Shown in pieces: positions 27,695 through 60,055 of a stretch of 64,000 nucleotides of DNA. The stretch covers positions 36,009,251-36,073,250 of the forward strand of contig OY855903.1 of the NCBI GenBank assembly GCA_963693305.1. Reading direction: 5' to 3'. Every line of letters starts with the position of its first letter. Position 1 is the first letter of the stretch. This DNA comes from Meandrina meandrites (lineage: Eukaryota; Cnidaria; Anthozoa; Scleractinia; Meandrinidae). Under the pieces are notes generated by a model. That model ran no database searches. It was not told the origin of the DNA and saw only the letters and a list, made by a program, of their open reading frames with translations. A program made the position numbers and the translations under genes.

Positions 27695-27775
27695 CCGTGA
27701 AGGGTATACCTCGCACGTTTTATGACACCAAATTTAGCGTAGAAATTATGGTAGAGCTATACGGTTCTACTGTTT
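27695..27775. repeat. candidate left terminal repeat of a large element
   Basis: CGTTTTATGAC, then GCGTAGAA and GTAGAGCTATACGGTTCTAC, align with the inverted sequence at 60838-60900 (CGTTTTATGAC, GCGTAGAA, GTAGAGCTCTACGCCTCTAC) in the same order. CGTAGA/TCTAC words continue inward to about 27815 and again near 28050. Similarity is only about 70% over 65-110 bp, so this is tentative. Confidence 0.4.
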
Positions 27776-27815
27776 TCTACTTTTTGTACGTCGTAGCGTA
27801 GAGTATAGCTTTTTT

Positions 27816-29338
27816 TCATAAAGTAGATTTAAATAGCAATTATAGAGTCGTATTTTAGAGTATATCATTTTTGCGTTTAGTACAGCGATTATATTGCACA
27901 GTCAACTTTATCTTAGTAAATAGAGTTGCGCATAATTTTCATTATTTGAGTTTATTTGTTTTTTTTTATAACATAACTGTTAGCCTTTTTTTATTTTTTT
28001 AGTTTAATTCGGTTCATTCTTTTCGTCCATTGATATGATCATATACCAATCTACGCTTGTACTATACTACTAGCTCGTTTTCGTGTGTCTATATGTACGT
28101 ACAGTGGTACGTACGTACTATTAGGTCATCCACTGCCTATATCGTTGAGTATTACGATTTTACAACTATTTTTTCCTCATGTTTTTACATTTATACCCTC
28201 AATCTCTCATTTTTTTAAGCCAGCTGCTTTATAATTTCTAAGCACGGGTCAGCCTCCTTCATTACGCATTACATGTAACTTAAATTTTCCTTTTGTACGT
28301 AGGATATTGCGTTATCGCCATAAATCGGGTACATTGGATTCTCGGAGTTTTGCTGCATCGTACATTACCGGTGCGTGAACATTGGTAATTGCCGCTGATG
28401 CGATGTCCTTACTTTGGGCTCATCTACATGGAACGATGATACACAAGAATGTGGCCTACATAGGGGAATATTTCGTTCAGTAGTGAAACAACTGGTCCGA
28501 AATCTTGCACAATATTAAAATTGGAGCATTTATTGTTTCCAAGCATTTGTCTTTCAGTCCTACGGCTGATTATCGTAATTTAAATACAGCAGAGTTTTCG
28601 ATTTCAAGGGAACTGCCTCCTGATGTTGACATTACGCTATTTTTTGTGGTTTCTAATGGCAAAGATATTCATAAATTCTTACCGTTTGGAGATGGTGAGT
28701 TCGATTCATGTATAGTTAAAAATTCTGCTTGTACATTTTTCGATCACATTTTGTTTGCCGATAATCCCTGTTTCTAAATTTTTTTTTTTTGGTTTTCCTC
28801 TACTCCTTATAATTTTTGTATCAAAAACTGTTCGCAGAAAACGTTCATAAATACAAATAAAATTCTTTGTCTGCACTTCAATTGTACAGTTTGGTTTTTA
28901 ATACACAAGTCTATTGTGTTCTGTTTTCACATTTTTACATTTGTTAATTTGTCAATAAATATTTAGTTAAACATTTCATGCACCATCTATTTTCTTTTTA
29001 ATCCTTGCGTTCGCTTCTATGGTCAATGTACCACATACAAAATTTTGAGTCTGAGGTCCGCGATTTCTTGAGATGATCAGTTCAGTAATACTCTTCTGTT
29101 GTTATCGTTTCCTTCCGCCCTTTATTTACAAGATGTAGTCAACACAATTCAGTTAACTTTTTTATTGTTCTTTCTTAATCAGTAAAATTTCATTACAATA
29201 CAACATTTTTAGTTTATTCTCTTCAGATTTGCATATTATATTGCAATAACTAATTTTTCCATATAGCGTAACGTTATTTAATCTCTACTTCTCTAGTGCT
29301 TTTGTTCCTACTCTAATCCTTAAATTTCTTGTGCAAAA
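27816..29338. other. AT-rich region with one unassigned ORF
   Basis: An open stretch at 28505-28777 on plus (reading TADYRNLNTAEFSISRELPP after a TTTCAG acceptor at about 28559) ends in TAA and is followed by AATAAA near 28855. It could be a last exon, but no domain is recognised. A GTACGTACGTAC patch occurs near 28094-28120. A TTTATT at 29339-29344 is AATAAA on the minus strand, well placed as the poly(A) signal of the NTPase gene. Confidence 0.4.
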
Positions 29339-29548
29339 TTTATTTCAAGTTTTTCTCCATGTTAACTGTTCCTGTCAAACTTGCTCTCTTAAAACATATT
29401 TTGGATTTTTTCGTCCTCATCTCATTTTTTCTAATATGTGTCTGTAAACCTTTAATTTATAGTGCAGCATATCTTTCGACTATTGCTCTCGTTATCTCCA
29501 TCTTTGTACTTCAACGTGTAAATTTTGAGATACAATATTCTCTTTTCT

Positions 29549-32500
29549 TCACTTGCAATTTCCACATACAAATTTTACTTTTTTCAATTTGGCCTCGCTT
29601 AAAGTCATCCCTACACATTTTAAGTGTTGCCATTGTCTGCATTTTACGCACAAAATATGTCCTGTCAAACTTGCTCTCTTACAACATATGTTGCAAGTAT
29701 TTTTGTCTCCTTTTTTCTCATCCGTGGCTGTATGCGATCTTGTCCACTTCCTTTGTTCCTTGGCTCTTTTCTCCCTTGGTTCTTCATCTGCAGTGTTTAT
29801 TGTAAACGGCAAACCTTTTAAAGAATAGTGTATTCAAGCATAGAAATGTTATATTTAATAATTGCTTTATTTTTTTTTCTCTGTTTGAAAGTCTTTAGTT
29901 TATAGTATTGAGCAAATCACTATTTGCCTTTCCCTTAACACCCAAATTTTTAACTTTCTACATTAAATAAAATACTTCACTTATATTTGCACCATTTTCA
30001 GAATTATATCCCGACTTACTCTCATTTAGTCTGTTAATGCTGTTATACTTAATGTGTAAATTTCACACAACTTCATTACTTAGGTGAAATTGCTTCAGTG
30101 CACTTACAACTGCTTTCATCTGATTCTCTATCCGCCCCCTGGTTTCCTTCATCCTTTTCTTCTATTTTTCTAAGCTTTCGTTTGATTGTTTTGTACTCCT
30201 CTTCATACTTTCTCCTCTGCATTTTCTCTTCTTCCAGATCTTAGAACAAATATCAATAGTCAAATGGTTACCTTTTCATTATAGCTTGTTACCTAACTGC
30301 TTACGTATTATTTATCCAGCATTTTTCTACCTAATGTTTAGCAGATTTGTTAATTATGATAATGAACAGTCCATTAATGGTATATAATTGCATTTATATA
30401 AATACCTCTACCATTGATAAATGTATGTGGCGTATTTTACACATCTTTTCATTTGGCAATACCTTTTTTAGCTTCTTTAATTTCCTCCGACATTCTTTGT
30501 ATTGTCACTCTGTATTCACTGATTTCATCCTTGGTATTTCCTACGTAGCGCTCGGTTTCCTTTCTTGCAATTTTCTCTGCCTCCATATCTGTGTTAGCGA
30601 GCGGAGATATGGATTATTGCTAGTAATATTTCTGTTTACTTTGTTTTATAAATGTCATTGATATTGTACTCTTGTTTCAACTATATTACATGTCCTTTTT
30701 TGGTAAAATCAATTTGCACTCAAATACTTTCTCACTCTTCAGTTTCCAACATTGGAGTAAATACTTCACGGTCGCATCTTGTGCTTTTTCCAATTTGTTG
30801 TCTAAGTTGCTGTTCACGTCTTTTATAAACAATTTGAAGTACACCCATTCCATTCATAAGACAATTACCTTTCTTCAGTCTATCCAGCTCCTCTGCCTTT
30901 GTTCTTAATGTTTCTTTTGTTTCAGACAGCTCTTTCCTCAGTCCTACTTCACCCCCTCCTTCTTCATCGTTTTCGTTTCTATCACCTATGTTGCTACCTG
31001 TGCGCAAAAAAAAGGCCCTCGTTTAAGTTCGTTTTATAAATTACTTCCTTTTTTTTTTGTAATTTCAGGTTCAAACCTACCTCCAGCTTCTTCCACACTT
31101 TCTATATCTTCTTCCTCTTTACGGAATTCAACACCTGATGCTTGAAAAGTACTTAATGTCAGGTTTGTATATTTCACAACATAATTTTGATAAGCAACTT
31201 CCCTTATTTAGTTTGCCACTTCTTCATCATTTCATTTGTCCCCTCATACTGCCCCCCCCCCTTTCCTAAATAAGTGCATTTATTAATTTATTATAATTGT
31301 CTTTTACTATTCCATAAATTATTTCCATTCACTATTCACCAAAGCATAGTTTCAATTTTTTGTAATAACTTGGACATCACACTATAACACCCTTCTTTGC
31401 ACGAATCTTTTAATAATATTAAATTACTTTTATTAATTACATTTCTGTACTTCAGTTAATCTTTTTTTTTTATTATTTCCACAGGTATTATTGTTTCTTG
31501 TATGCACTGTTGCTGCCATCACCTTTTGCTTTACAAGGAACTAACCTTTATCCAACTTTGATAGCACGTCGGCTGGAAACAGAGACCTCTTGATCATAAT
31601 GCAACCCTTTGGCGTCACACGCTTCTTAGATGGAGAATAGAATTTGGCCTGTGCTGATGCCTTGCCTGAGAATAAACTTTGTTATTTTTCTCACTTGTTT
31701 CATTTTTTTACTACTATTCTACATTTTATTTTCCTGCTTTTACTTGTTGCCACGTGCTTCATGTAATTAGTCTTTACACTTTGCTTTGTATCAGTGCTCT
31801 AAATATTTCCTATTTCTTTTCCTCCAACTTTTTTTTTTTGTTAAGTAAACGTCTTGTTCATATAGATAAACAAATTGTAGTCTGTATTTTTTTATAAGTC
31901 TGCGTTTTCTTTTTAAATCAAATATTAATAATAAAATGCAACTCACCAATACCCAGATTGGCCACCGCTTTCCGTACTTCAGATTGTTCTAGCCTCTCGA
32001 TACCCTTCGTTCTACATCTTTTATTTAACTCTCCTACCCTTACCGACACCACTGGGATTAGGTCATCTTTTTCAAACGCGGTCTTCCTCTTTGTGTCCAA
32101 GAATTGCCCAACCTGTGAATACTTTCATGTTATTGTTTTATTATTGTCATATTATTGCCATTTCTTTCTGTGTTCATTTCTGTTTTGCATTATTTTCGTT
32201 TACTTTTCTTTTTTCCCTAATCGATCTAATATTTCGGCTTTCAATCAACATTCTACTGCGTCTCTTCGCAAATCTCTTCGTTCTATTTTCCTAGTTATTT
32301 TAATTTTTGCATTTCGCGTGCAAATTCTCTTCAAACCAACAATAGACTTCTCTTTTTTTATATTTAATAAAAAGTGTTTTGTTCAGCCTAGCTCACCTAG
32401 TTGTTTTGCTACATATGTGGAATCAAAATTTTGAATATTACAAACTTGTTTAGTTGTCAATCCGTCTACCGCTGCTTGCATTGTAGAGGCCACTTTTGTG

Positions 32501-33359
32501 ACAATTTGTTCGGGCGATGCATAGCCACAATTTATGGGCGACGGTATGTCTGTCTCCTCCACTATTTGAACTTTACGTACAAACGGCAAAATAACTTCTC
32601 TCATGTGCTCAACCAATTCGTCATCATCAACTGCGGAAGTGATTTCACCCATCTGTGGAGAATTTGTTCAAAATAACATTAAAAACCACTTTGCCAATGT
32701 TTGAAAAGACTGTCGCCTATTACTTACTTCGCCAATTGATCTAATCATATCTTACCTTTCTACATGAGAACAGCACACAAGCGGCGCTCTGTGCTATGCG
32801 ACTTATTTTAGATGACTTCCCCAACTCGTCCTGGATGATACTCAAGCATTCTCCGTAAAATTTCTGCCCATCTACAGTTTGCAGCCATTGCCCAATCCTG
32901 ACAACTTCTCCAACAGTGCACGACACCTTCCTTATGAGTACTGCGAATCTCTGTGCCCACTGCGTTAGATCTTTGCTTCTGCAATTGTCCTGTTGCCTTT
33001 CGTTTACCTTTATAACTATTACTCTTTCCATCAACCTGTTTATTACAATTCATTTATCGCATTATTTTTTCTATTACGAATAGCAATATTAATTATGGTA
33101 GGAGTAAGTATTATAAATTCGGCATTTTCAATCGTATTGGTATTAATACTGATAGTGATATTTAAAATTTCAATGATATGAATATCTCTCATCGTGGCAG
33201 CAATGTTATCTATAGTAGTCGTACCACTAATAACTCGTACAGTAATTACGATAATAATAACAATAATTATAATAATACTAATAATAACAGTAATACAATT
33301 TTTATAATATTAATAATGATGCTAATACAAATAATAATAATAATAATTATTATAATTTT

Positions 33360-33395
<36 letters not shown>

Positions 33396-36017
33396 CACAA
33401 CAACTGTAACAACCTTTGCCTGTCCGCGTGACCCAACCAGCGAATGACGTGCTCGTTTACTGTGGTGATAAATGTGCACTTGGGAGTTGTCTCTTGCCTG
33501 CAGGAAGCGCTTGTACCACCTGAGAAAAATCTTTTAGCTGCTTTACCGATTTCCGCTGGGTCTGTTGGATCGTCAGCTTGGAAACCTAGGCTCGTTTTCG
33601 ATGCTACCACGCCACTGTAGGAATCAGTAAACAGCTCGAAAAATAAATGCGGGTATCCTCCAACCGTGGCCAGAGCAATGTTGCCAGCTTTTGTCTTTCC
33701 ACTGTCTGGGCAACCCACTCCTACCACCAATGGACAAAATCCTATCGCCTGCTGCCACTGTTTAAAAGAGAAAAATTGTCTTGACTTACTTTTTATAAAT
33801 TTCTCTCGCGCAGTGACCTGCTTTATGATCTAACATATAATTTCCTAATTTTCTTCACGTCGGCTTTTATGAACTTTTACAATCATAAGGTTTCTTTCCG
33901 CTCATTCTAGTTGAGATTAAGAAGAATTAACTAGTAATATTTGACCAAAAAAAAAAAAATAGTCAGACTCGAAACATTTTTCAAGTTTTCATTATATCCC
34001 AAACAATCCTCTTATATCATAAGTTAATTAAGGTACTCGCCTCTTGGTAATTTGCCATTACCACACCCATGCTCGCCAGGTAGAACTGTGAAAGGAAGTT
34101 GTCTCGTTGCATTTCGCCTGTTGGTTTTTCTTCTGGCCCTTTGTCCACGCCATCAGCTGGGAAATCTATTTCCGGCGATTGGGGTTGTTGCAATTCATAA
34201 TCCTCCAATTGCGATGGGAAGCAAAGGCATTCGTCAGTGCCAAATAACTCGTTTACTACCACTTTAAGTTGGGTATCTTCTTCTATCTTTTTCTCCAACG
34301 AGCCTGCTAATAAGTGTGCCATCGCATCGAAATAAACTTTTGTTAGTTCTCCTTCCACTTTCGCTGCTACCGTCTCATCAGCTATTTCACCTCCGTTTCC
34401 AGACTCTGTTAGATGGCTCAGCCATTCTAGGCCATGGTGACTAGCTTCAACTTCAAAGCCATCCTTACCAATGCTCAGATTTTGATTTAGGCACCATACT
34501 GGTTCACCCGCGATTCCAGTGTTCTTTCCTACTAGAGACACTGCCCTCAGTACCTCGTCTTCCTGTTCTGGAATTGGTACTTCTTCCGTAAGTCTTGTTA
34601 GTAGTTTGTCCAAAGTTAAGGTGTTCACAGAAACGGAATACCTTCTTACAGCGGAAGCTCCAAAGTTTAGTTCTTTATCGAATGCTGTTGGGTTTCTGAA
34701 GCTGCTCAGCTGAACGTAAAATTCCCTGGAAAAGGAACGATTTCTTATTTCTTTACTTTTTTATTTCTTTCCTTATTTAGTTTGCTACCTCGTTTTCCCC
34801 TCCTATTTTAGTTGTGATCGATGTTAACAATATTACTCTTGTAGTTTTAATAAGTTCAATAAGTACTGTTATGCCTGTTAGTTGCCAGCTGCGATTGAGG
34901 GGGGAGACTCTTAACTACAGATCCAGAGCAGTTGCTAAGGGATTGCTGTAGACATTTTTTTGAAGCAAGCGATTCTGAAACTTTTTGCAACATTAAATGG
35001 CGAATTTTATTTGGGGGTACACCTCCTTTGAAAAATATATCATTGCGCGTGCGAAACTAGTGCCAGTCCCAAACCGCGCGTTAAAATTTAAAATCCCTAC
35101 AACTCCAAGGAAACAAGGTAAAGTTCCGATTCCTTTTACGAATCAGAGATAACGTCGCCGTCTTTATAATCTGGCGTATGCTTTTACCGTTTACACGAAA
35201 AAAGGAAACGCTACTTATGAAAGTCTGTATATACGAGTGTTTATTACGCACTAACTCTTATAATAATGCGAATTTCACAAAAACGATACGTCACGTTATG
35301 CATGTGGACGTTCTTTATCTATTGACGCTCATTTCAATTTTACAATCTATCCGCCGTTTGAGTTTTAGGGTTTTCTCTGTTCTGGTCACGTGACGCGTTA
35401 AATATGGCTGTGACTTGAAACTCTTGGAGGAATCTTCAATAGAACAAACTCGTGCAAAAAGCTTATCCGTATGAGGTCTTATTTCCAAAATATGGCAATT
35501 AGAAACCTGCCTTAGAAACGAATTGGTAGTTAAGAGTCACCCCCCTTAAGCGTTCCCAACATTAACCTTTACGATATTAAAATGAAAAATACATCGCCTA
35601 CTACATATGTTTTCTGTTGAAAAAAATAAGACCCCAATTACACGCTTATATTGCAATATTCAGACATCATGCTCTTAGCCAAGACAAATTTAATTCTTAG
35701 CCTTTTTTAAAATGTCCTATTCAATTTAACAATCTACGCCTTCCCTTTAACTGCGTTAAACTTCTTCGTCTATTTCAAACCCGTCCCATCTTCTCCCGTA
35801 TCATGAATAAAGCAATTTCTTACTTGGTAGACCCGTTCCTGTGAGTTGCCAATCCTTTATACCCTGTTTTGTCACCAGCTTTTACTGCTTTAAGTAATCT
35901 TAGGGTGCAGTTCGACAGTTCTTTCCTATCGTCTGGTCCTCCCTTTGTTGTGTACACGCCGTTTCTTGCCACTAAATCTATCGCCGCCATATCGAACTTG
36001 AACTCCGTTTTGGTCAT
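29549..36017 (-). CDS. P-loop NTPase with coiled coil and C-terminal PHD finger, KDZ-element partner
   Basis: Twelve minus-strand exons: 36017-35824, 34725-34041, 33757-33414, 33035-32756, 32652-32413 (or 32397), 32112-31947, 31665-31546, 31134-31081, 30997-30869, 30588-30463, 30239-30108, 29787-29549. Start MTKTEFKFDMAAIDLVARNG; stop TGA. The exon 3 product WQQAIGFCPLVVGVGCPDSG then KTKAG holds Walker A GCPDSGKT (about residues 308-315); CTFITTVNEHVIRW and MERVIVIKVNERQQ follow, as in AAA/helicase-like ATPase cores. Exons 8-11 are acidic/basic coiled coil (EEEDIESVEEAG, ELSETKETLRTKAEELDRLK). The last 80 residues have a PHD-like Cys/His pattern (CNICCKRAS, CVKCRQWQHLKC, CGNC). Intron 2 uses a GC donor (GAG|GCGAGT). 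At exon 5 the strong donor GTGAGC breaks phase; the weaker GTAGCA keeps it. About 900 aa; probably nuclear. A diverged copy of part of the PHD exon lies at about 29370-29440. Family not named; function inferred from context. Confidence 0.7.
33240..33405. repeat. AAT microsatellite in intron 3 of the NTPase gene
   Basis: A long run of imperfect then perfect AAT/ATA units ends just before the intron's donor at 33413. It produces spurious Ile/Asn-rich ORFs on both strands. Confidence 0.9.
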
Positions 36018-37700
36018 TCGCAATTGTCCCTTTTTATGCCATTTGTAATGCTATTTTTACCTACTAGCTTCACAGATAACGATGTTTTGCTATTGATTGA
36101 CATTTCTCTTATCGTACATGCCACTCCCTCTATTAAAACACATTAACTAAGATAACTCATCGCTTTCCCTTTTATATATAATTTTATAAAATTTATCTTT
36201 TTCTCGCCCCAATATTGACATTACATTGCTTACTGATCTTACCCTTTACAGCGTAGGGTACCATTTTCCATCATTCTTTCCATCCCTTTATAAGCGGTAA
36301 AGCTCTCTCCTCGTGTACTTAAAGCGGAACATTGGTTAAATATTTTCCGCCTTTCGAGTTCTAATTGCGTGTTTAAGTCTGTTATCTTTGATGTCGAAAA
36401 CGGAAATTCTGCTCGTTCTGCTCGAATTTTCTCAGCTTTTAATTGTTATTCCGTTTTCTAAAAGCGGGCAGTATTCTTTACTAATGAAGTCATGTCGTTG
36501 GATACTTTATTCCGCTTATTCAATTGATCTACGCCCTCGTTTTTTTTGGCACATGCAAGATGTAATGCATTTTGACAACGTTTTAAGTCATTGTCATTCC
36601 ATTTTTTAAACGTTAATTCAGATCTCCCTTCTCCAGTTTTTTCAATGTTTGGCCATAGACAATTTCATTTAAAAAAATAGGGCTAAGCACATAGCAAATT
36701 GTTTGGGTCAACTTGCTTTATTTTCTTATACCGGTTTCGTCTGATCATAGAGACTTCATCATGGAGTTTGAACATTATTCGTATTTTATTCCTGTGCTGA
36801 AGAGTACAGGTCACTTCCCAATAAAGGTGTGAACAGCAAAAAACACCTACAACTTTGCGCGCAGGATATGACTAAAAACCTGCGAATTTGCAATGTTTAA
36901 TTTTGGAGCTCACGGATTTGACGTTAAATCCTTCAGCCCACATTTTCCCTATGTATTCGATGATGTAAAAGCGGAAAATTCCGCAAGAAATTCCACTTTC
37001 CTCCCGGAAAATTTCCTAATCTGTTTATCCCCCTTACGTACGACTACAACGCGGAAAATTACTTTAAAGCGATGTTCCTCGTCTCCTATACTCCGCGTAG
37101 ATTACCTTCTTACAAATGTTATGGCCTACAAAATGTTTCTTTTTCTCCCCCTAGTGTTACGGTGTCCGACTGTCTACTGTAGTACAAGCATTGCCCTCTC
37201 CGAAGTTTCCATACCTTTTCTTTGCCTTTTTTAATTTTCCACTTACTGCACTTCAGCAATTAATTGTGAAAAAAAAAAAATTCCAAATCGATATTGTCTA
37301 CAGGGAAATATTTCCACACATGCAGTGGGCGTCCTTTCATCCTAGATTCCGCAATCTTGAACTCCGCTTCGCTATTCAATTCCTCATTTTTAAATTAAGG
37401 AAAATGACATCAATTCATTGCCTTCATTTTTTTTTTCCATATTAAGTCATCCGCCCACTATTTCAAATCCTTAGTTCCTGCCTCCTTTTGTAAAGCGGAA
37501 CATTCCATCCCTTTCCTTCATACGTATTCTTTTCGCGCGAAATACTTCTACTGCAATGCAATTTTCTAAAATAAGACTTTTCGACATGTTTGTATGCCTT
37601 GTTCCGGTTCCTTTATTTTTTCAGTACCCAATAAAAAGCCCGGTTAACTTGCTGTTTCTCTAAGTCCAGCAAGGGATAATACGCCAAGTGACATCTGAAA
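36018..37700. promoter_or_regulatory. shared spacer of divergent genes with GCGGAA motifs
   Basis: This 1.68-kb spacer separates the start codons of the divergent NTPase and KDZ genes. The word AAGCGGAA(A/C)ATT recurs: AAAGCGGAACATT at 36321, AAAAGCGGAAAATTCCGC at 36967-36984, GCGGAAAATT at 37051, TAAAGCGGAACATTCC at 37491; inverted forms are TTTTCCGCC at 36344 and TTATTCCGCTTATT at 36507. Repetition in both orientations fits a bidirectional promoter or transposase-binding region. No TATA box is obvious. Confidence 0.5.
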
Positions 37701-39501
37701 ATGGAAGCCAAACTGGAGAAGATGTTAGCAGCCTCTAAAGAACGGAAGCGCAAACGCGACGGTATCAGAGAAGCAATAGGCGTATTGCAATCTACCTCAC
37801 TGCAAGAGCTTAGTGACATCGAGTTTGAAAATTCTGACGAAATAATCTGTCTACTTACGGCAAAGTTCGGTTGGAAGACTGTGTTTTTGATCGGACGACT
37901 TCTTTCAAAATTGCCCTCCCTAATTGCCAGCCAGTTAGAACAGCACGTACTTTCTGGGTCCGTGGGCGAGTTGGCAAAATGTATCACAGTTGATGAAATT
38001 GCCGTCATAAAGAAACTGCTCTCAAGATGTACTGATTTTCTCGAGTTTTCTTTCGATAGCAGCTTGGCCGAAATTTCAAAGTCGTCGTGTTTCCCGTTAC
38101 AAAGAATTCTGTATCCCCCCACTACTTCTTGTTTTACTTGCGGTTGGACCTTGCAGTTACAGAATAGGCCTGCCCGGATATCGGTGTTCGAGAAAGAGGG
38201 ATCCCTACCGGGGATAAAATTTACCCTTAAGTGCCGTAACTGCAAAATTAATTATGGCTATTCTATGTATGGAAACTGTGAACAGGGATACCGATTCTAC
38301 GACAGCAGACAGCCTTACATCGAGTCCAGTAACGTTGTTTACCTTGTACGCGGATTGTGCGTGGAACAAATCTACTTGGCGTAAGTCTGGTTTATTCTCT
38401 AATTCATTTATTTACATTTCTACTAAAGCGTTAATAACTTTCCAGGGCTTCTGATGTAGTTCATCTCTCCTATTTAATTTAAACATTTCTTACATTCTAA
38501 ACTTCACTTTTTGTGCATTTCATTTTTACAGCAATCACGCCTGGGTATCCTTCCAGGGTTTCGCGGAGGCTTACAATGAATACGTCACGGAAAGCTCTCT
38601 CGGAGCTTCCTCCTATTCTTTTGATCAAAAAGGTTTGCTTAGTTTCTATAGTCTCATGCTACTGATCTACTGTTTCAAATGATCATTACATCCTCAGTCT
38701 TTAGCTCTCCTTCCATCTTCGCTATCCGTATTTACCCTTTTCATTTTTCATGCAGATGACTCTTTTCATCAACGCTTGACTGACAAGTTCACTTCTTCAG
38801 CATTTTTTTGGCACGAAGTAGAAGAGGAATTCAGGGAACGTGGTATGGTATGGTCTTTTCACGGTACGGACTATGATGCATTGGAAGACGCCCTTGGTAA
38901 GGTTAATGACATGCATCAAGGCGAACTCTACAGACACGACAAGGACAAGTGTTCTGCACTCTGCAAGCAGAAAGGTAAAAAATGAAATAGGTTAAATTGG
39001 TTGCTTATCAATGTTCATTAGAAACAAGTTTGTAATTGTTATCAACACTTATTAGCAATGGTATATTAAGTTTCGATTGGTTAACAGGGAATGGTATATC
39101 GTCAAATTCTGGTTATAAGCCCTGGGCTTATACAACTTCATAAGGGGTTTTGGGTGGGCTTATAAGCGGATGGGCTTATATCCGGTGGAGGGAGGGGGTG
39201 GCTTATAAGCGGAATAAAGAAAAAGTTGCGAAACGAGTCAAGGCAGTGTTGATCGAAATACCTTTTTGAGTTAAAAAGTCAAAATAAAGCAACATTGAGC
39301 CCCCATCAGTACTGTCATATCCATATCCAACGCGCGCTCGTACCGCTCCGGGAAGAATATTTACTTAGACAGCATCCTCGCATGTCAAAACATGTCACAG
39401 GATACGTTTTAATAATAATAAGAATAATAACAACAACAACAACAACAACAATAATAATAATATTAATAATAATAACAATAATAATTATAATAATAATCTT
39501 G

Positions 39502-39555
<54 letters not shown>

Positions 39556-41569
39556 TAATAAGAACAAGATTAAAAATAATAAGATTAATAAAGGTATTAC
39601 CTTGGCATCTTGTCTCCTACAGGATGCTCAAGCTTCTCTTCCATGGACGGAATATGGAAATTAAGGTGACTGTTATTTCTGCTCTAGTTGGTACTTTCCT
39701 TCACAGCATTTTCCCATTATTTTGCTGCTACTGCTACGATCCTGAATAATACACACAAACATTACTTAACATTGTTCTAAACGACCCCCCAATTCAAAAT
39801 AAATAATCATTTCTCCCTGTTGTAATCTCTTAAAGGTTTGCCCACTGCATGTTTCCTGTCAAAGCTGAAGTTTGTGGGATAGCTACCGTTAACTACCCGA
39901 ACGTCTGCACTGAACAGCCTTGCAATCCTCAATCGGCGCTTTGTGAAAGACACAGCAAGATTGCAAAAGCCAAGGGTATACCAACAGCGTTGAGAGAATT
40001 TATACACAACTATTGTGGTGTACCGCGTCGAGAGGAAGGTATAAAAAATAAACCGTATTTTAAAATTATATAACACAATTTTGCTATTTTTTTAATTGTG
40101 CACATTTGGAGTACGTTTAATATTTTGCTACTTGATTAACATTCCATACCCTCTGGACCATCCACAAAGCATACCCATGTACCCCCCCCCCCCCCCCCAT
40201 TAACAAACAAAAGTATTAAAATTTTTAATATTACCGTCATTAACGTTCTTTTTCCCTTCCTAATAGAGACCAGTAACAGCCCCATAACTTTAAGCGACGT
40301 GGCTTCTGTTGACAACGCCCTCAAGACATTAGCAGATAAGGAGTCGCGTTCCCTTACTCCATCGACTGTTGCTCGGAGTCAAGGTAGGCCATGTGACCCT
40401 TTTTTTTGGTAAATATTCGTGTGAAAAAAAGGAAGGGCATTTGTTCTGCAGTGATGCACAATTATGTTTTCTTTCTGCTATCTGAATTCGCGAGTAAAGT
40501 CCCCTATTCCCTTCTTTTCTTTTAAAATTTAATAAACATTACTATTTAACTTTTCATTCCTGTTATTCCTGCTTTAAAAAGTTTTTCAATGATTCCTTTG
40601 CTTTCGCTACACAAAAAGGCGTACCTTTATCAAGAGAGTCAATTGCCTTTTATCTTCACATCAACTGCTCTAAGAAAATGGATCACTTCTTAATGTTTGG
40701 GCAAACATCTGTTGAATTGCAGGTACTGAAAAGTTCCTAAATGAAAATTCGGCGCTTCTCGTGGCAGATCACAGATATGACGACGACGATCAACAGAATT
40801 GTAATAAGGACACGGGAGGTTCTCAGAAGTCGTTGCAGAAATGGTCCCGTGGATTGATGCATTTCGTTCGAGGATCAGGCTTTATAGATAGCTGGAGTCC
40901 TCTCTTCAAGTGAGTTTTATTCGGTGGAGGTCGTGGGGGTGAGGGGGGGGGGGGGGGGGGTTAGTTAATGATAACACATTCTACCTGCAATTAGCTAGAG
41001 CTATCTCCTGTAGAAAATTCCATTTATGATAAAATACATCACTATATTATTAAAGTATGTTTGAAATATGTTTATCTTATACTTTCAGGTCGGAATCGCC
41101 GAGTCAGGCCTTTATATTAGCTATCCATTATCTTTACCTTCGCCTAAAAGACCTTCCGTCGTCACAGTGGTGCGACTTCACATTAAGTTACGACAATATG
41201 TGCAACCTGGACAAGATGTTGGTGGCTCGGAAACGCTTGCCCCTGGAACAGCCGTATGACGAAATTTGGTTGAGCATTAATAAAGTAATAGATCGTTTGC
41301 ACTTGAGGAACCACAAGGATCCAAGATGCAAGGAGCTGTACAATCCGGATGCCCTTAAGGAAAAGTTTCCAAATCTAAACACACCTGTTGCAGAACAAAC
41401 GTTTGTATGGGCATCCAGATTTAAGAAAATTTTAGGAGCCATGCCCAAAAACCATTTCCTGTTTTATTACCATAGAATGGTAGTCCGACGTAATCGTTAT
41501 ACTGAAAAATGTTATGAGGCAAATATTACTCCCATTTTGCCCAAAGTACGCTCTGAAAACACTTCTTAA
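37701..41569 (+). CDS. KDZ-family DNA transposase (CxC5-CxC6-KDZ), 8 exons
   Basis: Exons 37701-38380, 38532-38632, 38756-38974, 39623-39665, 39836-40038, 40267-40383, 40723-40909 and 41089-41569 give 676 residues with no frame conflict at any GT-AG junction. The N-terminal third is helical and basic. A CxC5-like cluster has Cys 144, 147, 178 and 181 (SCFTCGW, LKCRNCKINY) and ends LCVEQIYLA. A CxC6-like cluster spans exons 3-5 (DKCSALCKQKG, CSSFSSMDGIWKL, HCMFPVKAEVCG, CTEQPCNPQSALCERH). The last exon carries the KDZ catalytic half: SYDNMCNLDK (Asp 552), VIDRLHLRNHKDPRC, NTPVAEQTF (Glu 619), WASRFKKILGAMPKNHFLFY and MVVRRNRYTEKCY. KDZ (Kyakuja-Dileera-Zisupton) proteins cut and paste large DNA elements. 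The upstream catalytic Asp is not certain (candidate VADHRYDDDD, exon 7). Poly(A) signal at 41636-41641. Head-to-head with the NTPase gene. Looks intact. Confidence 0.85.
39411..39558. repeat. AAT/ACA microsatellite in KDZ intron 3
   Basis: Runs of AAC and AAT units fill about 150 bp of the intron between exons 3 and 4. Confidence 0.9.
40181..40198. repeat. poly-C tract
   Basis: A run of about 17 C in KDZ intron 5. A poly-G run (near 40945-40962) lies in intron 7. Both are simple repeats within introns. Confidence 0.85.
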
Positions 41570-41641
41570 AGGTGATCTTCTTCTATATTAATTTCACATG
41601 TTGTTGTAACATTTGTAAGAAAACTCCTGCACTTTAATAAA

Positions 41642-43940
41642 GTGAAATAGTTACTTATTACCAGTGTCGCATTTGGTTTCTACTCGCCTATTATACATTA
41701 TACTTTATTTTCTTAGCCCTTTACGGTTCCCAGAAATCTAACCGATTTTGAAGAAGTCTGGGAGGGTGGGGAAGGGGGGTTTTGCCGCTCTCCGATATTA
41801 ATGGCGATCCAATGCAGGCCTTTCCGTTAAAGGAATTTCCCAGCAAACTTTGGGACAATGCAACGCAAAGCATAACAGCTACAGCCTACTTCGACTCTAT
41901 TTCCTTTCCCTCAGCTGGTTGTATTGTGCGTTAACAATGCAACTTTAGCTAAGTTTCATCGTCAAAATGTTCTGCTCTGAAACATTTATGGTTTAGCGGA
42001 TTAACAAAGTCTGGTATATGGATGAGAAATATCATTAGTTAAAATGTTTACGGGAAGAACACTGAGATACATTTCGATGCAATGTCCACTAGTTGCTACC
42101 TGATACTGGTAGTAAAGGTGCTGTTTTGCCATGACGATCGCCTTGCTATTACTTTAAGGGAGTGATCGTTGATTGAATAACGTTCTTGCAAGGTAAGGTT
42201 AGTAGCCACAACATTATTCTCCAACTGTTGCTTCTCTACAGTGTACTGTGAATTTTGGTGTGCTGCGAATTTCGGGTATCATCATAGTGAGACTACCTTT
42301 CCCGTTAAGGTGTTGATTTTTTTAAAAGCGATAATTGCTGCGTGTATTATTTTTCGCAAACTCTGCAGTCGTAAACTGGGGAAGGTAGATGTTGGTTAGG
42401 GTTAGTAAAGCTATAAGATCTCCAAGTTACGAGCTCTGGATTAATTAAAAAGGGCCAAACCGGACTGTATTGAAATTGTGCTACATATAACAGTTACTTT
42501 ATTGAAAGTTTCAGATAAATAAATCAACTCTCCAACAACTGGAATACCTATTAAGCCTCTGCTCACGAAATAATTTTGTTTCTAGAGCGCTTAAAGTTAA
42601 CATGCCTCGTGAAATGTCTCAAGGCTACATTGTTTAACACTGTTAGCGCGGGGTTTCAACTGCCACTGACGTTTGTACTGGAGCTCTCAAGCAAAGTGAT
42701 CTACGTGAACTATTATGTACTTGAATAATTCGTATCACGATCGCAGAAGAAAGTTACGGTCGCCGGTACCATTATCAAACTCCAAATGTGAAATAAAGGA
42801 GAACATAGTGTGTCAGGGTTTGGGGGGAGTGGGGCGGGGGGGTGGCCTTGTTTTAAAGGCTTCCCTCATAATTTTTTTTCTTTTTTTTTTTTTGAGGGGG
42901 GGGGGGGGGTGAACCCCTGCCACACTTCGTTGATTATAAATGAAATGTCTTTGAGCTAATTGGTAAATTCTTTCATTCATCAACTATCGAGATCATCCCC
43001 ATTACTCAATCAAGTATGGGATGGCTTTCAAAATAAATTCCAAGCCATATCTAATTTAAAGTGGAGCAATGAGGGAGAGTTCAACTTGACATAATGCGCG
43101 TTTTTTTTTTTTTTACTTGAAAAGGAATGTCCAAACTGCGAACAGCTTAAAACCGGATATTCATTCCAATTGTTATATTTGTATAACACTAAATAAAAGT
43201 GATTGATTTAATCCCGAATAAATGGCATACCCACCAGTATACCTCCACCCACAACAATAACTCCGGACAATGACATCAAAAAGGCATTGGTGTTCTAGTC
43301 TGAATAATTTCTTACATTCTCGAAAAATGTTATCTCAATAACAGTTGCAAAATGCATTACTATTTCATTTAGAAAATACAACACCGTGGCCATCTATATA
43401 TATACAACACAGACACAGGCAAGCTATGAGTTCGAATTGTAATATTACTGCAGCAACGATTTCAACAACATCAAAGATTTTGAAGCCATTAAAAAAATTC
43501 ACAGTTTCTTTAATAAAAAAAAAGAAATCAAGGAAACACTGCTGCTCACTTTTTAAAGGTGACATCAACAACGCCCAAGCATCTTTCTAATAACTACACT
43601 GCTATGTATAATCTGGGTGGCTGAGTGACTCCATGTGCCTCCACTTTGAGCGCCAACCAGTTAGCCGTTAGCAAAAGTAACACAATAAAGTAGCCCAGCC
43701 ATTCAGGTTAGGGAAATTTAGGGATGTATTGTAAGGGATGACGATTATTTCTGACTGTTTGCTTTTAACAGTATTTTCTTTTTAAACTAATCCTATAACA
43801 TGAAATTGTGAAACATGAAATCTTGCTAATTTCTTTGCTAATGTAAAGCATTTTGACATGGGTTTGTGCATTAAAATAAAGCAAGGATTAATGACTTGAG
43901 GTCAGATTTATCCCATTTTAGCCATCGTACTTTCAGAGAT
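41642..43940. other. noncoding spacer
   Basis: No supported gene. G-rich and T-rich low-complexity tracts occur near 41755-41785 and 42820-42912. The only open stretches are short and of low complexity. Confidence 0.5.
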
Positions 43941-44050
43941 AATATCCGTATCACACAAAATGAAAAAGCAGAGGCTGAGGGAATTTTACCTGACATCACT
44001 GTGAAATACTATAGAGCAATCATTTGTGACTGAAAAACATTACACTCATC
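43941..44050 (+). pseudogene. coding-like fragment, copy A
   Basis: Translates as KAEAEGILPDITVKYYRAI. A diverged copy near 48795 reads AAEGIIPELTVKHYRSI. The shared protein reading with conservative changes points to a decayed coding exon in two copies. Family unknown. Confidence 0.35.
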
Positions 44051-45535
44051 AAACGAGTACTGCATCTCTTCTTTCTCTCTTCATGTTAATTAGGACTCGT
44101 TGCCACGATCACAGAAGCAAAATTACACAAATCTTTGGCTGAAAAGCTGTATGTTAATGACGCTAACACTGTAAATGAAGTTTACCCTATGTGTATGCTA
44201 GTCCAATACCAAATATGAAACTGCTCCTTCCCTTTCAATGTATATAGTATCTCACTGTCTTTTTCCAATTACATATTTTTTAATGAAAGGTCTCCATTTC
44301 AAGGGTACACTCGAAATGAGGTGTCAATTAGGATTGTTTGGGTTGAAGCCCCCATCCTTGCCTGGATCCAATGAATGTTATTGTTCCAGAAAATGTAAGT
44401 ACAGAGTGTTATGTATCCACTATTTGCTAGTATAATGCTAAAAACAGTTGGTGCTTATACCCAGCAATGAATCGGGTGTAGAGAATGGTGAATATTCATA
44501 ACATATCGACAACCCTCCGACATAAGGGTATCCCTCCCCCTTCCACACCTGCAACCTCCACCCATCTATTAATTCCAGTTCAGCCCAACGAACACCCTCC
44601 ACCTTTTCCTAATTTAGCTTTTCTTAAATCCAAGTTCAACCACATTGTATATAGCCTCGACCATCTTCAAATTTTAATTGTAAAAATGGGTTTGGTATGT
44701 ATGTTTTCTATAATGGCACAGTCAGCTGTTATGCATAGCATATTAATTTGTCTAAGCTGAACGCAAACTCTTCAAGACCTGTAATTTTTAAAACTTTTGG
44801 GTAGCGTGAATGGTAGCGTGCTTTCAAATCATTTTGCCCTTGTTCTGCAAGGATGTGTGTTGAAAACAATGTTTGTTTAAATTATGAAATCTGCTTAAAT
44901 GCAAGAATCTTACTTTAGCAATGTTATGTCAATGCATTGATGCATTGCTGAATACAATTTAAAAATTGCTTGGAACAACAAACTATTTCCCTTTTTTAAG
45001 GTTTTTGAAACTTACACCGTGCATATCTTCATAAAGTGTAAGTACAGAGTGTTCTGTAAATTACTGTTTAGCGTACCCTCTACTCTATATTGCAAAGTCA
45101 GAGGGTTATGTGAGGGGTTAGTTGGTGGAGGGGGTTTTATCAAACCAGAAAAAGGAGAGTATGCATATGACCTGTAATTTAGAGATTGTTGGGGTAATTT
45201 AAACCAAAAAAACCCTTTTAAAAGAGCGCTTTGGGTAAAAATATTTTCTTGCAATACACAATCAGCTGAAATTTTTGTCATGTGAAAGCAAACTATTTCA
45301 GACATTAACCCATGAAATCGGCAATTACCTGGGAAGAGCATTGTCGAATGATTTTGTCCACAGTGTGGACTGCATACACTGGTGCATCCACAACCAATGA
45401 GTGTTACACAAGGAAATATTGTGATCTTAAAATAAAATCCATAACTTACAATTCGCATATCTTCAATCAGTGGCCTGATCTCACATTGGCTTGGCCACCT
45501 GTTTCACGTAAAAATGGACACTAAATTAGAATGTG
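44051..45535. other. noncoding, minor repeats
   Basis: A short direct repeat TGTAAGTACAGAGTGTTMTG occurs near 44393 and again near 45037. ORFs here lack support. Confidence 0.4.
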
Positions 45536-45990
45536 TGGTTCCAGAAGATATCCACACTCCCCCCACAGAAGGTATTTGAAGGGGGGGAACGCAAAGACCC
45601 AAAAAATTAAAGGAATGTATGAAGCCAAATTGGAATTATAGGCGGGGTGGGGGGGGGGGGGGGTCATAGGGGTAATGCCTCCCTTGGGGATGGTATGGAT
45701 ATCTACTGAAACCAAACAATTAGAAAAAGAACCATGCAATGCTGAAAGTTGAACATCTTATGAAAGCCCATCGAAGAAGGGATTTGAAGTAAAGAAAATG
45801 GTTTGTGATGGGAGACAAATTAATAAGTCATGGGTCCTAGTTGTGGTATGTTCATTACAGCTGCAATGGGTGCTTGCAAAAAAAAAATATCCATGCTCTC
45901 CCAACATAACGGATTGGATATAAATTGGCTAAATTGGAATTTCCAGAGGGGTATGGGGGTAATAGGACAAATCCCTTCCCTACTAATTAC
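45536..45990. repeat. diverged direct repeat with G-tract
   Basis: Two similar segments, about 45545-45700 and 45885-45990, share ATATCCACACTCCCC/ATATCCATGCTCTCCC, AAATTGGAATT and GGGGTAATRGG words in the same order. The first has a 17-base poly-G run at about 45646-45662. Confidence 0.45.
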
Positions 45991-48790
45991 AAGTGGGGTG
46001 GTCATAATTTTCTATTCTATATTGTCCAAGTTTAGTATCTCTACATTTTCAAAAATGACAGGGTTCTTTCAGATATTTTTTAAAAAGAAATGGATAGCCA
46101 CTTCTGCAGAGCAGCACGGTTCTCTATTTTATCAAGTGAAACAAATGAATGATTGTCCTAAGCTGTCAAATCTTCGTTTAAACATTGCATCTGAATGAAT
46201 ATGTTCAAATATGACTTGATGTAAACAGAGGACTTAGTTTCATTGTTTATTCAGAGCAGTTTTAATAAAAATAACAAAGATCGAGCTTTGTTGTTGAAAA
46301 TGAACTTGGCGCACTGAGTTTAATTCTTCGTTTTCCTAGTAAATTATAGTATTGGAGCGTAAATAACAGTTCGTTTCTATTTTATAGGTGGCCATTAATA
46401 CAAACTTAATGCGTGTCACAAAAATGACAATTAACGCGCAACAAAATACTCATAGCTTTTCATGCTATGTAGACAAAGTGTAGAGCAGAAAAGGGAAACA
46501 ACTTTAGATATCTAGTAATCGCTTCAATAAAGAAGTAATTGACAAACCAGGCAAACCCGAGCGACAGTCATGGCTAATGGCAATTTCCAATATGGCGAGT
46601 AAATGGTCGTGTTCAATTTGTCACAGTGTTTTCTAGAGGTTTTCTAAAGGCAAACATTGTCTCATATTGAGCAATAACAGTAGACATGCAAGCCAGAGCG
46701 ATAGAGATGCTAAGCAGGGAGCTTCAATAAATAAATAATGGTCAGATAAGGCTAACCAGAGCGAGAGATTCAGTTCATGGCAAAATTCAATATGGCGCTA
46801 AACCGTGAGCTTAAAATGGTCGCGTTGCATCTGTCACTTTCTTTGTAAGAGTATAAACGTTTGGAAGTCGTCCCGGTATTCTCCATGGCAATCATATGCA
46901 CCGTACATGAATTTTTGGGTAAAATAACAGCTCATTATAACAGAACCTGGGAGTCGACCGGCCGTGATGGAGAAACAGCAGGCTGAAAAGCACTTGAATT
47001 GCATATGGCGGTTAGTTTTGATTTTGGAACAACCCCACAACCTGCATTACCACAATGTATAATATACTCACAATAATCTCCAGAGTAACGTAATTACCTG
47101 TTGCAAGCTTTGGTGATAAAAACTCTCAGCATAAAACGATGCTCCTTGGGTCGAGCCTTCATTGACCGTGATCACTTTCACCTGACAAGAGGTATTCATA
47201 GTCCAGCAGTTCGCGTTTGGATTACACAATGCAACACACCGCGATACATTGCATCCCCTCATTCCTCACAAATAGGCATCAAGCGAGATCATGCCAAAGG
47301 AATTATAAAGGAACTGTTCCATTGTTCCATGAGTACAAGAACCAAGCGCAGATTCTTCGATTGCACGAGAATATGTGCGTGTTCACGAGAACGACAGTAA
47401 CATATCATTAGAAAGATGTCAAATTCCTTTCCGACCACACAAGCAAATGCCTCGTTTAATTTACGATACCAGAAATTTCCTTTTGTGCGCTTTAGATAAA
47501 GACTTAATCAAATGTATATTAGCAGCGAAATACAAAACATGAACTCCATTTCAAAGTACTACTCGATGGCAAATACACTGAATTAAATCGTCGTTTGAAC
47601 AATAGAATTTGTTGACTGACGAACCACGCCTCCGAGTTACTCTGATTTAAACGCAATAGTTCACGGTACAGTAAATGCGGAAAAAATCGCTGGAGATCAC
47701 CAATGAGAGCTATAGGTATTTTACTAGCCAAATTTGAGGCAACGTCAGGTTTATAAATCCTCCTTAAGTTATCCGAAATCTGCAAGAATTGAAAAGATTG
47801 CGGTATACCCCCCAACCCATGACGCTTTTGGTCAGCTGTGGTGTCATAACCTCGCTAATTGGGGCTAATGAACGCTGCAAATGATTATCTTTGCAAAAAC
47901 TTCAGATTTTAGGCTACGGAAAAGCAAAATAGTATATTTGCAGCTAAGTAATAAGGTTGGCCATTAATAAATTTGTGTTTACTTTGTTTTCACCCTTTTG
48001 ATAGTAATAAGGTAACAGTTGAGTTGCGCACATATCAAACGGGTTTTTAATAGCTACGAAACAACGACATTTTCAAACACCGATAAGAAATCATGTTTGC
48101 TGTCTCAATTTCCCACGAGATAGGGACCCAAAAAAGGTTGCCTCGAGTTGAAATCTCTAACTAGAGAATAATTGCCAGTTACTATATTTTAGTTGTAGCC
48201 CCTTTTGCTGTTAAAAATAGTTTATCTTAAGGTGTGGGAAAAGATTTTAATTTCGTTGGAAAGGTTTTAAAACTTTTAGATTGCACATTTGATTAAAAAA
48301 TGACTGATGCTGTCCATCTTTGAAACTTACAACTCTGTCAGTGAGAAAAATTCTTTGCGGGTTTTTATATCAAAGGGAGTGCTACAACATGTATGGAAGG
48401 TAAGCTTGTTTATGTATATGCTCCGCGTGTCCGACATGCAATATAACTGTAAATTGTGTGTCCTTTCGATTAGGGGTTTCAAGTTAAGTGTTTAAGAAAA
48501 AGTGACGCATTGATTATTTCATCCACAATGGGCGCTGGGACCACTTTGAGTGAAATTGCCGCATCCCATTATACCATTCCCGCGCTCGCAAACAAACGAT
48601 TGTAGATATTGATATGAGCTCCAAAAAACGTAGTATTAAAAGCAAAGCAAGTTTGAAAGAGAATGGAGATTGCCTTACATAACCTGAACATTTGACCATG
48701 TCGAGAAATTTTATTTTGAATTGTATTGCAATCTAGTCTGTACAAAAGCCACGCTGATTGTTAGCTTCGAAAGGTCACAGGATAATCGGT
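45991..48790. other. noncoding spacer with weak ORFs
   Basis: ORFs at 47068-47262 (minus, Cys-rich: GCNVSRCVALCNPNANC, ending at a GTAATT donor) and 47519-47815 (minus) are open, but no partner exons or domains are certain. The Cys-rich one could be an isolated PAN/apple-like exon. Two GAGCGA/AATATGGCG-type segments near 46555-46590 and 46755-46790 are a diverged direct repeat. Confidence 0.35.
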
Positions 48791-48895
48791 TGGTAAAAAG
48801 CGTAGAGTTTGCAGCGGCTGAGGGAATTATACCTGAACTAACTGTGAAACACTACAGATCAATCAAATGAAAGTGAAGAACAGTACTCTCTCATG
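48791..48895 (+). pseudogene. coding-like fragment, copy B
   Basis: Counterpart of the fragment at 43941-44050: the frame AAEGIIPELTVKHYRSI matches copy A in the same orientation, about 4.8 kb away. It ends at a stop shortly after. Confidence 0.35.
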
Positions 48896-49638
48896 AGGAA
48901 AAATGCGAAGCATAAGTATCAGACAAGCGGAATAGCAACTTTCTACTAGAATTATGTATTGTACATGTACAATGCATTTCTTAGACAGAGGTCAGCTGAA
49001 TTTAAGCGTGAAATCTAAACAGAAGGCTATCGCTCCCATAACTTGCATATTTTTGTCTAGAACTGTGTAAATTTCGTTCATCATCGTACAAAAAAATCTT
49101 ACCTGTAGGCCTATTTTGGGTAGTTATTGTGGGTTTTTTATTTCGAAATTGTTCTGTTTGAACGGTTAAGCCGAAAATAATATTTTATAGAAGTCGGGGT
49201 TTTCTGTAGGTATTAGCTAAATGTAACCGTATTTTCCAAGATTGAAATGGTGACCGCAAGGATTACCCAACCAAGCACAATGAATTTTAGTCAATGGCAT
49301 GAGAAAGGCATTGTTTTTTTCAACCGAGTAATTGCTTTTAAGCAAAAAGAAGGCGCTGCAACGTTGTAAGCTTAATGGGTGAAGTGAATGGTTCTTTAAT
49401 GCGCGCTAACAGAAAAAGTAAAGGGAGTAATGTTAGAAGGGTAATGTCCTAGTAAAACCTTTAACTTTAGACTTCATGAATTCTGTTTTTGGACTGAATC
49501 GCATCAACTGTCGAAGTCTTAAAAAAAATTTATTTCAGATTGTGAACTATTTCTTTTAATGTGCCAAAAAACAAATTTTCCTCTATTTGTCTTACATATT
49601 GTTAATTTATTCTAATTTCTAATTTATGAATTTTTGAG

Positions 49639-50070: not shown

Positions 50071-50149
50071 TCCTAACCCTAACCCTGGCTCATTTAACAT
50101 AAAAGTAATCCAGGCTACACAAAAACGAGCAGGTTGACCACCAATCTTA

Positions 50150-50725: not shown

Positions 50726-50749
50726 GTAAGAGATAAATACCGATAACGG

Positions 50750-50813
50750 AGGTATTACTCCATATACATCCCCTCGGGCCGCAGGCCCGAGGGATGTATA
50801 TGGATTAATACCT
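50750..50813. repeat. long hairpin, 30-bp arms
   Basis: The left arm (50750-50780) and right arm (50784-50813) are complementary over about 30 bp with one mismatch and one indel, around the 3-base loop GCA. The core is CCCTCGGGCC/GGCCCGAGGG. It ends in GGTATTA/TAATACC. It may be a foldback MITE or an extruded-cruciform site. Confidence 0.75.
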
Positions 50814-58730: not shown

Positions 58731-58739
58731 TTAAGGTGA

Positions 58740-60050: not shown

Positions 60051-60055
60051 GGCAA

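Follow-up and report, generated by a model that had tools for sequence, protein, structure and literature searches.

The locus considered here raises the question of whether two long spliced genes that diverge from a common start region, one encoding a KDZ-like transposase and the other a P-loop ATPase with a PHD finger, are parts of one mobile element and partners in its transposition. Both lie in a 64,000-nucleotide stretch of the genome of the coral Meandrina meandrites, referred to here as the window. We consider it probable that they belong to one giant KDZ-type DNA transposon with two genes, in which the CxC5-KDZ protein would be the transposase and the ATPase-PHD protein its dedicated partner. 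What can be read from the DNA itself is an element with its ends, target duplications and empty site, and the co-residence of both genes within it.

The complete DNA transposon spans 33,201 bp (positions 27705..60905), as defined by homology boundaries, target-site duplications and an empty site. On the left, homology to the copies at C1:37.83 and C1:39.78 ends sharply at 27705, while on the right homology to the copies at C1:42.598 and C1:37.82 ends sharply at 60905. The element is flanked on both sides by the identical 8-bp sequence GTGAAGGG (27697..27704 and 60906..60913, plus strand), a single copy of which marks the paralogous empty site (L072) at C1:40.468 Mb. Imperfect terminal inverted repeats occupy 27713..27771 on the plus strand and 60839..60897 on the minus strand; 45 of the 59 positions of the left arm equal the right arm, giving a score of 71 against a maximum of 30 among 1,982 controls. 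The outer 8 bp of the two ends differ, the outermost 8 bp of the left end, TATACCTC, having no inverted counterpart at the right end, and the repeat runs from base 9 inward. Additionally, the locus C1:37.82 Mb (C1:37820412-37835230) holds a deletion derivative of 14.8 kb, with ends identical to those of the window element and an 8-bp target-site duplication of its own, GGACAAGT; the KDZ gene and the ATPase core are absent among the matches listed for this derivative, as expected if it was mobilised in trans. Together, the defined ends with their inverted repeats, the two target-site duplications of 8 bp and the empty site support the earlier note's proposal that the gene pair resides inside a large DNA transposon, with an extent far exceeding the interval 29549..41569, which covers the genes only.

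The CxC5-KDZ transposase gene (37701..41569, plus strand) is assigned from its gene model, a CxC5 profile match, a KDZ core found by hhalign and its homologues. It encodes 676 residues in eight exons (37701-38380, 38532-38632, 38756-38974, 39623-39665, 39836-40038, 40267-40383, 40723-40909 and 41089-41569), which are joined by GT-AG introns throughout and read as a single open frame, confirming the eight in-phase exons reported previously. Of the two cysteine clusters also proposed at that time, CxC5 holds in Pfam with 51.3 bits against a cut-off of 26.9 (E 1.5e-13), and CxC6 is weakly supported, with no Pfam match in the window protein and 13.6 bits, below the cut-off of 27.5, in the homologue P0001. 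The Pfam KDZ model gives 14 bits for the window protein (E 0.04) and 13.4 bits for P0001, below a cut-off of 26.6 that is a library threshold and not a defining trait of KDZ transposons. When the window protein and five homologues (alignment A1) are compared by hhalign with two canonical KDZ open reading frames of the same genome that score above this cut-off, the KDZ core is recovered with a probability of 94.1 (E 1.3e-7), and the motifs around D342, D552 and E619 align in order, which bears out the catalytic motifs read earlier. Homologues occur in Acropora palmata, Paramuricea clavata and oysters. As far as its sequence goes, this is a case in which a CxC5 protein of about 680 residues can be the transposase itself.

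The P-loop ATPase-coiled coil-PHD gene (29549..36017, minus strand) encodes 924 residues in 13 exons (36017-35824, 34725-34041, 33757-33414, 33035-32756, 32652-32446, 32112-31947, 31665-31546, 31140-31081, 30997-30869, 30801-30736, 30588-30463, 30239-30108 and 29814-29549). The junction of exons 5 and 6 was set by comparison with a second copy of the gene pair, copy B, which removed a possible frameshift there, and for exon 2 a GC donor (GAG|GCGAGT) is used, since homologues read on as MANY.E at this point. Two features named in the earlier note are confirmed: the Walker A motif GCPDSGKT lies at residue 308 (33692..33715, minus strand), with GDPGCGKT and GSPGCGKT in the homologues P0006 and P0007, and the C-terminal PHD finger begins at residue 877 within the last exon (29549..29814, minus strand; Pfam PHD 27.7 bits, cut-off 24, E 2.8e-6). 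The protein also contains the motifs GFQADDP, at residue 351, and TTVNEH. Searches of Pfam, NCBIfam, PHROGs and PDB sequences return nothing above cut-off for the ATPase family; the homologue P0007 has a weak match to a phage primase (E 0.22), and a distant relative in L068 has weak matches to a clamp loader (E 0.01) and to AAA_22 (12.5 bits, cut-off 27). By these comparisons the protein is placed in no known P-loop family, be it AAA+, SF3 helicase or DUF927-like. Its ATPase activity is predicted from motifs, because the structure prediction, made for the Actinostola homologue, is too poor for use (mean pLDDT 44.3). A protein search with the window ATPase by itself yields 0 matches and one with an alignment of four ATPase copies yields 17; no relative turned up in a scan of viral contigs.

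The two genes start 1,684 bp apart, head-to-head, and run outward, so the diverging arrangement with starts about 1.7 kb apart is as first described; the intervening region (36018..37700) is presumed from the gene models to be a divergent promoter. Copy B, at C1:44.56 Mb, is a second head-to-head pair with a start spacing of about 1.73 kb. Two premature stops interrupt its KDZ gene; its ATPase model is free of stops but lacks a short piece of the PHD finger, and the coiled-coil part of that model is uncertain. Copy B has a motif resembling the left terminal inverted repeat at L040:6652 (blastn E 0.001; aligned to the window end). In both copies, the distance from the ATPase stop to a left-end motif beyond it is about 1.5 to 1.8 kb. 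A scan of copy B for inverted repeats with a 7-, 8- or 9-bp target-site duplication, at 12 or more of 16 terminal matches, gave none, and no right end was found within 5.6 kb beyond its KDZ gene. Copies B and C are 87 to 94% identical in DNA over at least 5.6 kb past the KDZ stop, and by this shared DNA some copies arose through segmental duplication. For Paramuricea clavata, an octocoral, the contigs listed as the sources of the KDZ homologue (P0003) and of the ATPase homologue (P0007) both measure 11,696 bp, and from these equal lengths the two genes are probably linked there.

The view that the genes belong together thus draws on the second head-to-head copy with similar spacing and probably on P. 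clavata as well. Single-gene loci, which the earlier note itself had set down as evidence against pairing, count against it: the ATPase is present in copy D (C1:42.34 Mb) and in copy E (C1:29.51 Mb) with no KDZ detected in about 8 kb upstream (tblastn, E up to 0.1), and at the KDZ locus C6:18.82 Mb NTPase and PHD are absent among the matches listed. These loci could be fragments or diverged elements. The codon comparison of the window pair with copy B covered ATPase exons 1-7 (647 codons) and KDZ (642 codons), with the coiled-coil exons 8-12 set aside. Synonymous sites are saturated (proportions 0.77 and 0.81, respectively), whereas nonsynonymous proportions are 0.15 for the ATPase, 0.22 for KDZ and 0.03 for the Walker A exon. 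Amino-acid change is modest despite saturated synonymous sites, and at the level of codons both proteins have long been conserved.

Several repeats are nested within the element. A short insertion with 27-bp terminal inverted repeats, whose arms are 89% complementary, sits in ATPase intron 1 (34892..35552); a dispersed repeat with full and partial matches of 65 to 79% on other chromosomes lies between the left end and the ATPase gene (28314..29076); and another in the right part (57500..58888) has full-stretch matches of 83 to 87% on C13, C7 (two) and C4 and weaker ones elsewhere. Five of the 39 open reading frames of at least 75 residues overlapping 41600-60900 were scanned against Pfam and gave no match at E 0.01. 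The adjacent tyrosine-recombinase-like open reading frames have no match in the loci compared.

These nested repeats would also suit a reading in which two unrelated mobile elements lie adjacent or nested and their pairing is fortuitous. Such an accident is very unlikely, given that copy B has the same arrangement and that the left-end motif stands at a comparable distance past the ATPase stop in both copies. An ordinary or domesticated host gene pair, immobile and multiplied along C1 by segmental duplication, would account for the concentration of PHD-exon places (11 of 14 on C1, the window included) and ATPase-core loci (six of about seven), for the DNA that copies B and C share past the KDZ stop and for purifying selection on both genes. 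However, segmental duplication does not leave target-site duplications, inverted repeats, an empty site or, as here, a derivative shortened by deletion that keeps the same ends, the KDZ gene of copy B is disrupted by stops, and for the window copy the empty site contradicts this account, which we regard as very improbable.

A further reading accepts the KDZ transposon as real and takes the ATPase-PHD gene as a captured passenger, acting on the host, for example in silencing, or useless for transposition. Loci with only one gene of the pair are compatible with it, as are the unrelated accessory genes that KDZ elements are described to carry, such as TET/JBP in fungi (PMC12730594), and the genes, mostly of unknown function, in giant elements of Ectocarpus (PMC12477816). 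Yet the head-to-head layout and spacing are kept in a copy whose synonymous sites have reached saturation, the ATPase changes no faster than the transposase, and the octocoral probably has the same linkage, so that a passenger role appears rather unlikely. The preferred reading remains a KDZ-kind transposon with a dedicated ATPase partner.

In that two-gene system, the CxC5-KDZ transposase would recognise the imperfect terminal repeats, excise the element and place it at target cuts staggered by 8 bp. Its partner may oligomerise through the coiled coil and spend ATP on assembly or licensing of the transposase complex, while the PHD finger would read a histone tail and so determine which target chromatin is chosen or tolerated; a joint divergent promoter could serve both genes. 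The roles suggested in the earlier note for the NTPase, namely remodelling, target choice via histone marks and assembly, are likewise putative. Tn7 TnsC, Mu MuB and IS21 IstB are bacterial transposition ATPases paired with a transposase. They offer a works-like comparison only, a transposase and an ATPase in one element, and to our knowledge have no counterpart of the PHD finger or coiled coil. By this analogy it is possible, though we hold it tentatively, that the pair represents an ancient anthozoan two-protein system in which a KDZ transposase and a dedicated ATPase with a histone reader make target choice ATP-regulated and chromatin-guided, like TnsC/MuB.

With the KDZ (Kyakuja-Dileera-Zisupton) superfamily the coral element shares the D342/D552/E619 core motifs, CxC5, the presence of accessory genes and an 8-bp target-site duplication, a length described for Zisupton and for one family of Dileera (PMC12730594). 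Terminal inverted repeats are also a feature of the Zisupton type and are imperfect in the coral element. The coral transposase has 676 residues, while KDZ transposases are described that can exceed 1300 residues (PMC12477816), and its partner is an unclassified P-loop ATPase with a PHD finger, not TET/JBP. Giant KDZ elements in algae, like KDZ accessory genes in fungi (PMC12730594), are already known: the algal elements reach 30.3 kb in Ectocarpus and 31.7 kb in Chlamydomonas, where transposition was observed, contain nested insertions, include transposase-deficient copies thought to be moved in trans, and are enriched on one chromosome, for which local hopping was proposed (PMC12477816). The coral element is alike in size class, nested insertions, copies presumably moved in trans and single-chromosome enrichment, and the source passages make no mention of an ATPase-PHD partner (PMC12477816). 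The papers listed by literature searches likewise included no KDZ element with such a partner. Unlike the algae, the host of the coral element is an animal, whose life cycle is mainly diploid.

In the mushroom Pleurotus ostreatus, MSH4 contains a mobile 6.8-kb insert with a 739-residue open reading frame (660 in a relative) bearing CxC5/CxC6, close in length to the coral protein; the study that described it saw no KDZ at the distance expected and connected the insert with Copia elements (PMC7641404). The coral protein indicates that a KDZ core can be part of a CxC5 protein of this length. The Harbinger-type Nuwa is also a two-protein eukaryotic DNA transposon, with a transposase of another superfamily and a second protein that is a DNA-binding Myb/SANT protein, not an ATPase (PMC12730594).

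The finding would extend giant KDZ elements, reported from algae in the source passages, to an animal genome, and a CxC5 transposase of about 680 residues may explain fungal CxC5/CxC6 inserts thought to be without a transposase (PMC7641404). If the two-protein system is real, clustering on one chromosome would reflect ATPase-guided targeting or local hopping. For many eukaryotic cut-and-paste transposons the transposase alone is considered sufficient. A KDZ element that keeps an ATPase and a chromatin reader would make target choice by an animal transposon directly testable.

The head-to-head arrangement proposed in the earlier note, two spliced genes running outward from starts about 1.7 kb apart, is borne out, with start codons separated by 1,684 bp. 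The plus-strand gene (window 37701-41569) comprises a 676-aa open frame over 8 exons with GT-AG introns, and the minus-strand gene (window 29549-36017) encodes 924 aa from 13 exons. Two minus-gene junctions were set by comparison with relatives: exon 5 ends at 32446 (CAA/GTTTGT; CAA/GTATGT in the counterpart from copy B at 44.56 Mb of C1, the contig holding the window), and exon 2 ends at 34041, followed by a GC donor, which was assigned because homologues continue MANY.E through that point.

The plus-strand product had been described as a KDZ-like transposase, and this identification holds. CxC5 scores 51.3 bits (cut-off 26.9), and the KDZ core was recovered by hhalign. As the Pfam KDZ model reached only 14 bits (cut-off 26.6), the KDZ protein alignment A1 (6 sequences) was compared by hhalign with two same-genome ORFs from matches above the KDZ cut-off, giving E 1.3e-7 and probability 94.1 and aligning the DG, YDxxC and NT..EQ.F motifs at residues 342, 552 and 619, respectively. 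Homologues number five, from Acropora palmata (2), Paramuricea clavata (1) and oysters (2).

The P-loop/PHD gene predicted on the minus strand was likewise found, with Walker A at residue 308 and a PHD finger beginning at 877. Between them lie GFQADDP at 351, which we read as Walker-B-like, and TTVNEH at 391; a Lys/Glu-rich stretch is read as a coiled coil. No entry in Pfam, NCBIfam, PHROGs or PDB sequences matches the ATPase core above cut-off. The P. clavata homologue P0007 gives a weak lead to a phage primase (E 0.22), and a distant relative gives weak leads to a clamp loader (E 0.01) and, at a sub-threshold score, to AAA_22. The 17 homologues comprise two named (the anemone Actinostola and P. 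clavata) and 15 unnamed, of which all 11 inspected are ORFs of exon 2 only. Distant relatives with ~30% identity are also present at C1:36.386 Mb (locus L068:117-515, Walker A GEHRLGKT) and C8:16.74 Mb (L069/L061), and suggest that the family is larger and has one or more further branches.

That the pair forms part of a large DNA transposon is confirmed by the ends, target-site duplications (TSDs), inverted repeats and an empty site. In a DNA search with window 27300-31100, which located the left end, long matches at C1:37831975-37835230 (94%) and C1:39780007-39783223 (92%) both begin exactly at window 27705, and the sequence at this position is found again, inverted, at 60897. The left end reads GTGAAGGG/TATACCTCGCACG... 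and the right end ...CGGGCAGCAGTTG/GTGAAGGG, with GTGAAGGG forming a perfect 8-bp direct repeat that flanks the element (chance at a fixed offset, 1/65,536). From base 9 inward, the two terminal inverted repeats carry the same base at 45 of 59 positions, and their alignment score is 71 versus a maximum of 30 in control segments of the window (n = 1,982). A search with window 57500-63500 places a sharp boundary at the right end, 60905, in C1:42.598 Mb, and the C1:37.82 Mb match goes one base beyond it.

On C1, matches to the left flank run to 40468080 and matches to the right flank start from 40468073, an overlap of exactly 8 bases; 300 bases at C1:40.468 Mb align across the joined flanks and contain one GTGAAGGG copy. 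This locus is a paralogous empty site, another copy of the repeat hit by the element. The element (window 27705-60905; 33,201 bp today) therefore entered repeated sequence in one piece, and the transposon is demonstrated at the level of sequence. The landing sequence is gene-like and GC-rich (~0.5) with overlapping frames, spans window 24311-27408 with flanks to 27704, and resumes at 60906. Our reading is of a tyrosine-recombinase-like element that includes C2H2-like and SANT-like portions; four of its ORFs have no Pfam match, and it terminates in a 93-bp tandem unit. Elsewhere, window 14179-15747 holds an open piggyBac-type transposase ORF of 522 aa (DDE_Tnp_1_7, E 2.6e-84).

A 14.8-kb copy at C1:37820412-37835230 has both ends as in the window element and its own TSD, GGACAAGT. 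It retains the PHD exon and has no KDZ or ATPase-core match among the genome matches listed. This copy is a deletion derivative, and suggests that the end regions are sufficient in cis. The C1:39.78 Mb match breaks off exactly where this one does inside the element, at window 30967, so the two copies probably share an ancestor. Sequence matching the left end's first 188 bp at 76 to 78% is present at C14:4.14, 4.25, 4.35 and 4.45 Mb, spaced at roughly 100-kb steps, and at C9:4.07 Mb; these sites may be the ends of related elements that together make up a large tandem array.

The window lies at C1:36009251-36073250 in a genome of 551,114,374 bases and 56 contigs, and the nearest named homologues point to an anthozoan, probably a stony coral. 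Across this genome, match counts, which include the window itself and are all lower bounds, reach at least 49 at exon level for the KDZ protein, at least 23 in about seven loci for the ATPase core (6 on C1) and at least 14 for the PHD exon (11 on C1). Copy B shows the same head-to-head layout, with starts ~1.73 kb apart and the left-end motif 1.48 kb past the PHD stop, versus 1.84 kb in the window. Two premature stops interrupt its KDZ gene. Its ATPase model is free of stops; the PHD finger lacks a short stretch, and the coiled-coil portion of the model is uncertain. Synonymous differences between the window and copy B are saturated (0.77 over ATPase exons 1-7, 647 codons; 0.81 over KDZ, 642 codons), and nonsynonymous proportions are modest (ATPase 0.15, KDZ 0.22; Walker A exon 0.03, PHD exon 0.19), indicating long purifying selection on both genes.

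Pieces of both genes also lie close together at C1:43.43 Mb; at C1:36.37-36.39 Mb, 7.4 kb separate a KDZ copy from a distant relative of the ATPase, in a different layout; and at C3:13.03-13.06 Mb, a KDZ copy stands head-to-head with a weak PHD match (E 6e-4), with 17 kb between. The P. clavata homologues P0003 (KDZ) and P0007 (ATPase) probably share a contig, because each derives from one given as 11,696 bp. Counting against the pairing, the ATPase-bearing copies D (C1:42.34 Mb) and E (C1:29.51 Mb) have no KDZ match within roughly 8 kb upstream, and C6:18.82 Mb has KDZ with no ATPase or PHD match among the matches listed. Overall, the two-gene partnership is well supported.

Copies B and C are 87 to 94% identical in DNA over at least 5.6 kb past the KDZ stop, and segmental duplication has therefore also multiplied the family on C1; the clustering there could reflect segmental duplication, local hopping or targeting. 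An intron of the copy B KDZ gene (L039:3424-4595, C1:44.560 Mb) contains a 290-bp unit repeated in tandem ~3.2 times, along with inverted counterparts of 234 bp. KDZ exon-8-like ORFs at loci L014, L015, L016 and L018 (C1:63.9, C7:2.1, C11:28.2 and C12:23.6 Mb) are flanked by long 18-bp minisatellite arrays in opposite orientation on the two sides, L014 being ~92% identical to the other three across 3.4 kb; they look like a KDZ family of their own whose inverted ends are made of tandem repeats.

TSDs of 8 bp are described for Zisupton and a Dileera family, and TET/JBP genes are carried by KDZ elements of fungi (PMC12730594). Giant Ectocarpus KDZ elements reach 30.3 kb with nested insertions and additional genes, the sex chromosome is enriched in KDZ, and a 31.7-kb KDZ element was seen to move in Chlamydomonas (PMC12477816). 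CxC7 is described in fish Zisupton (PMC12062965), and the mushroom MSH4 gene has a CxC5/CxC6 insert that was not linked to a KDZ (PMC7641404). Among the titles and opening abstract lines of the best-ranked papers, none describes a KDZ element that carries an ATPase-PHD gene; a named family may exist in Repbase.

Judging from its KDZ core and from the TSDs, the transposase would recognise the terminal repeats, cut the element out and insert it at target sites staggered by 8 bp. The ATPase may assemble or license the transposase complex, and its PHD finger might steer that complex to chromatin.
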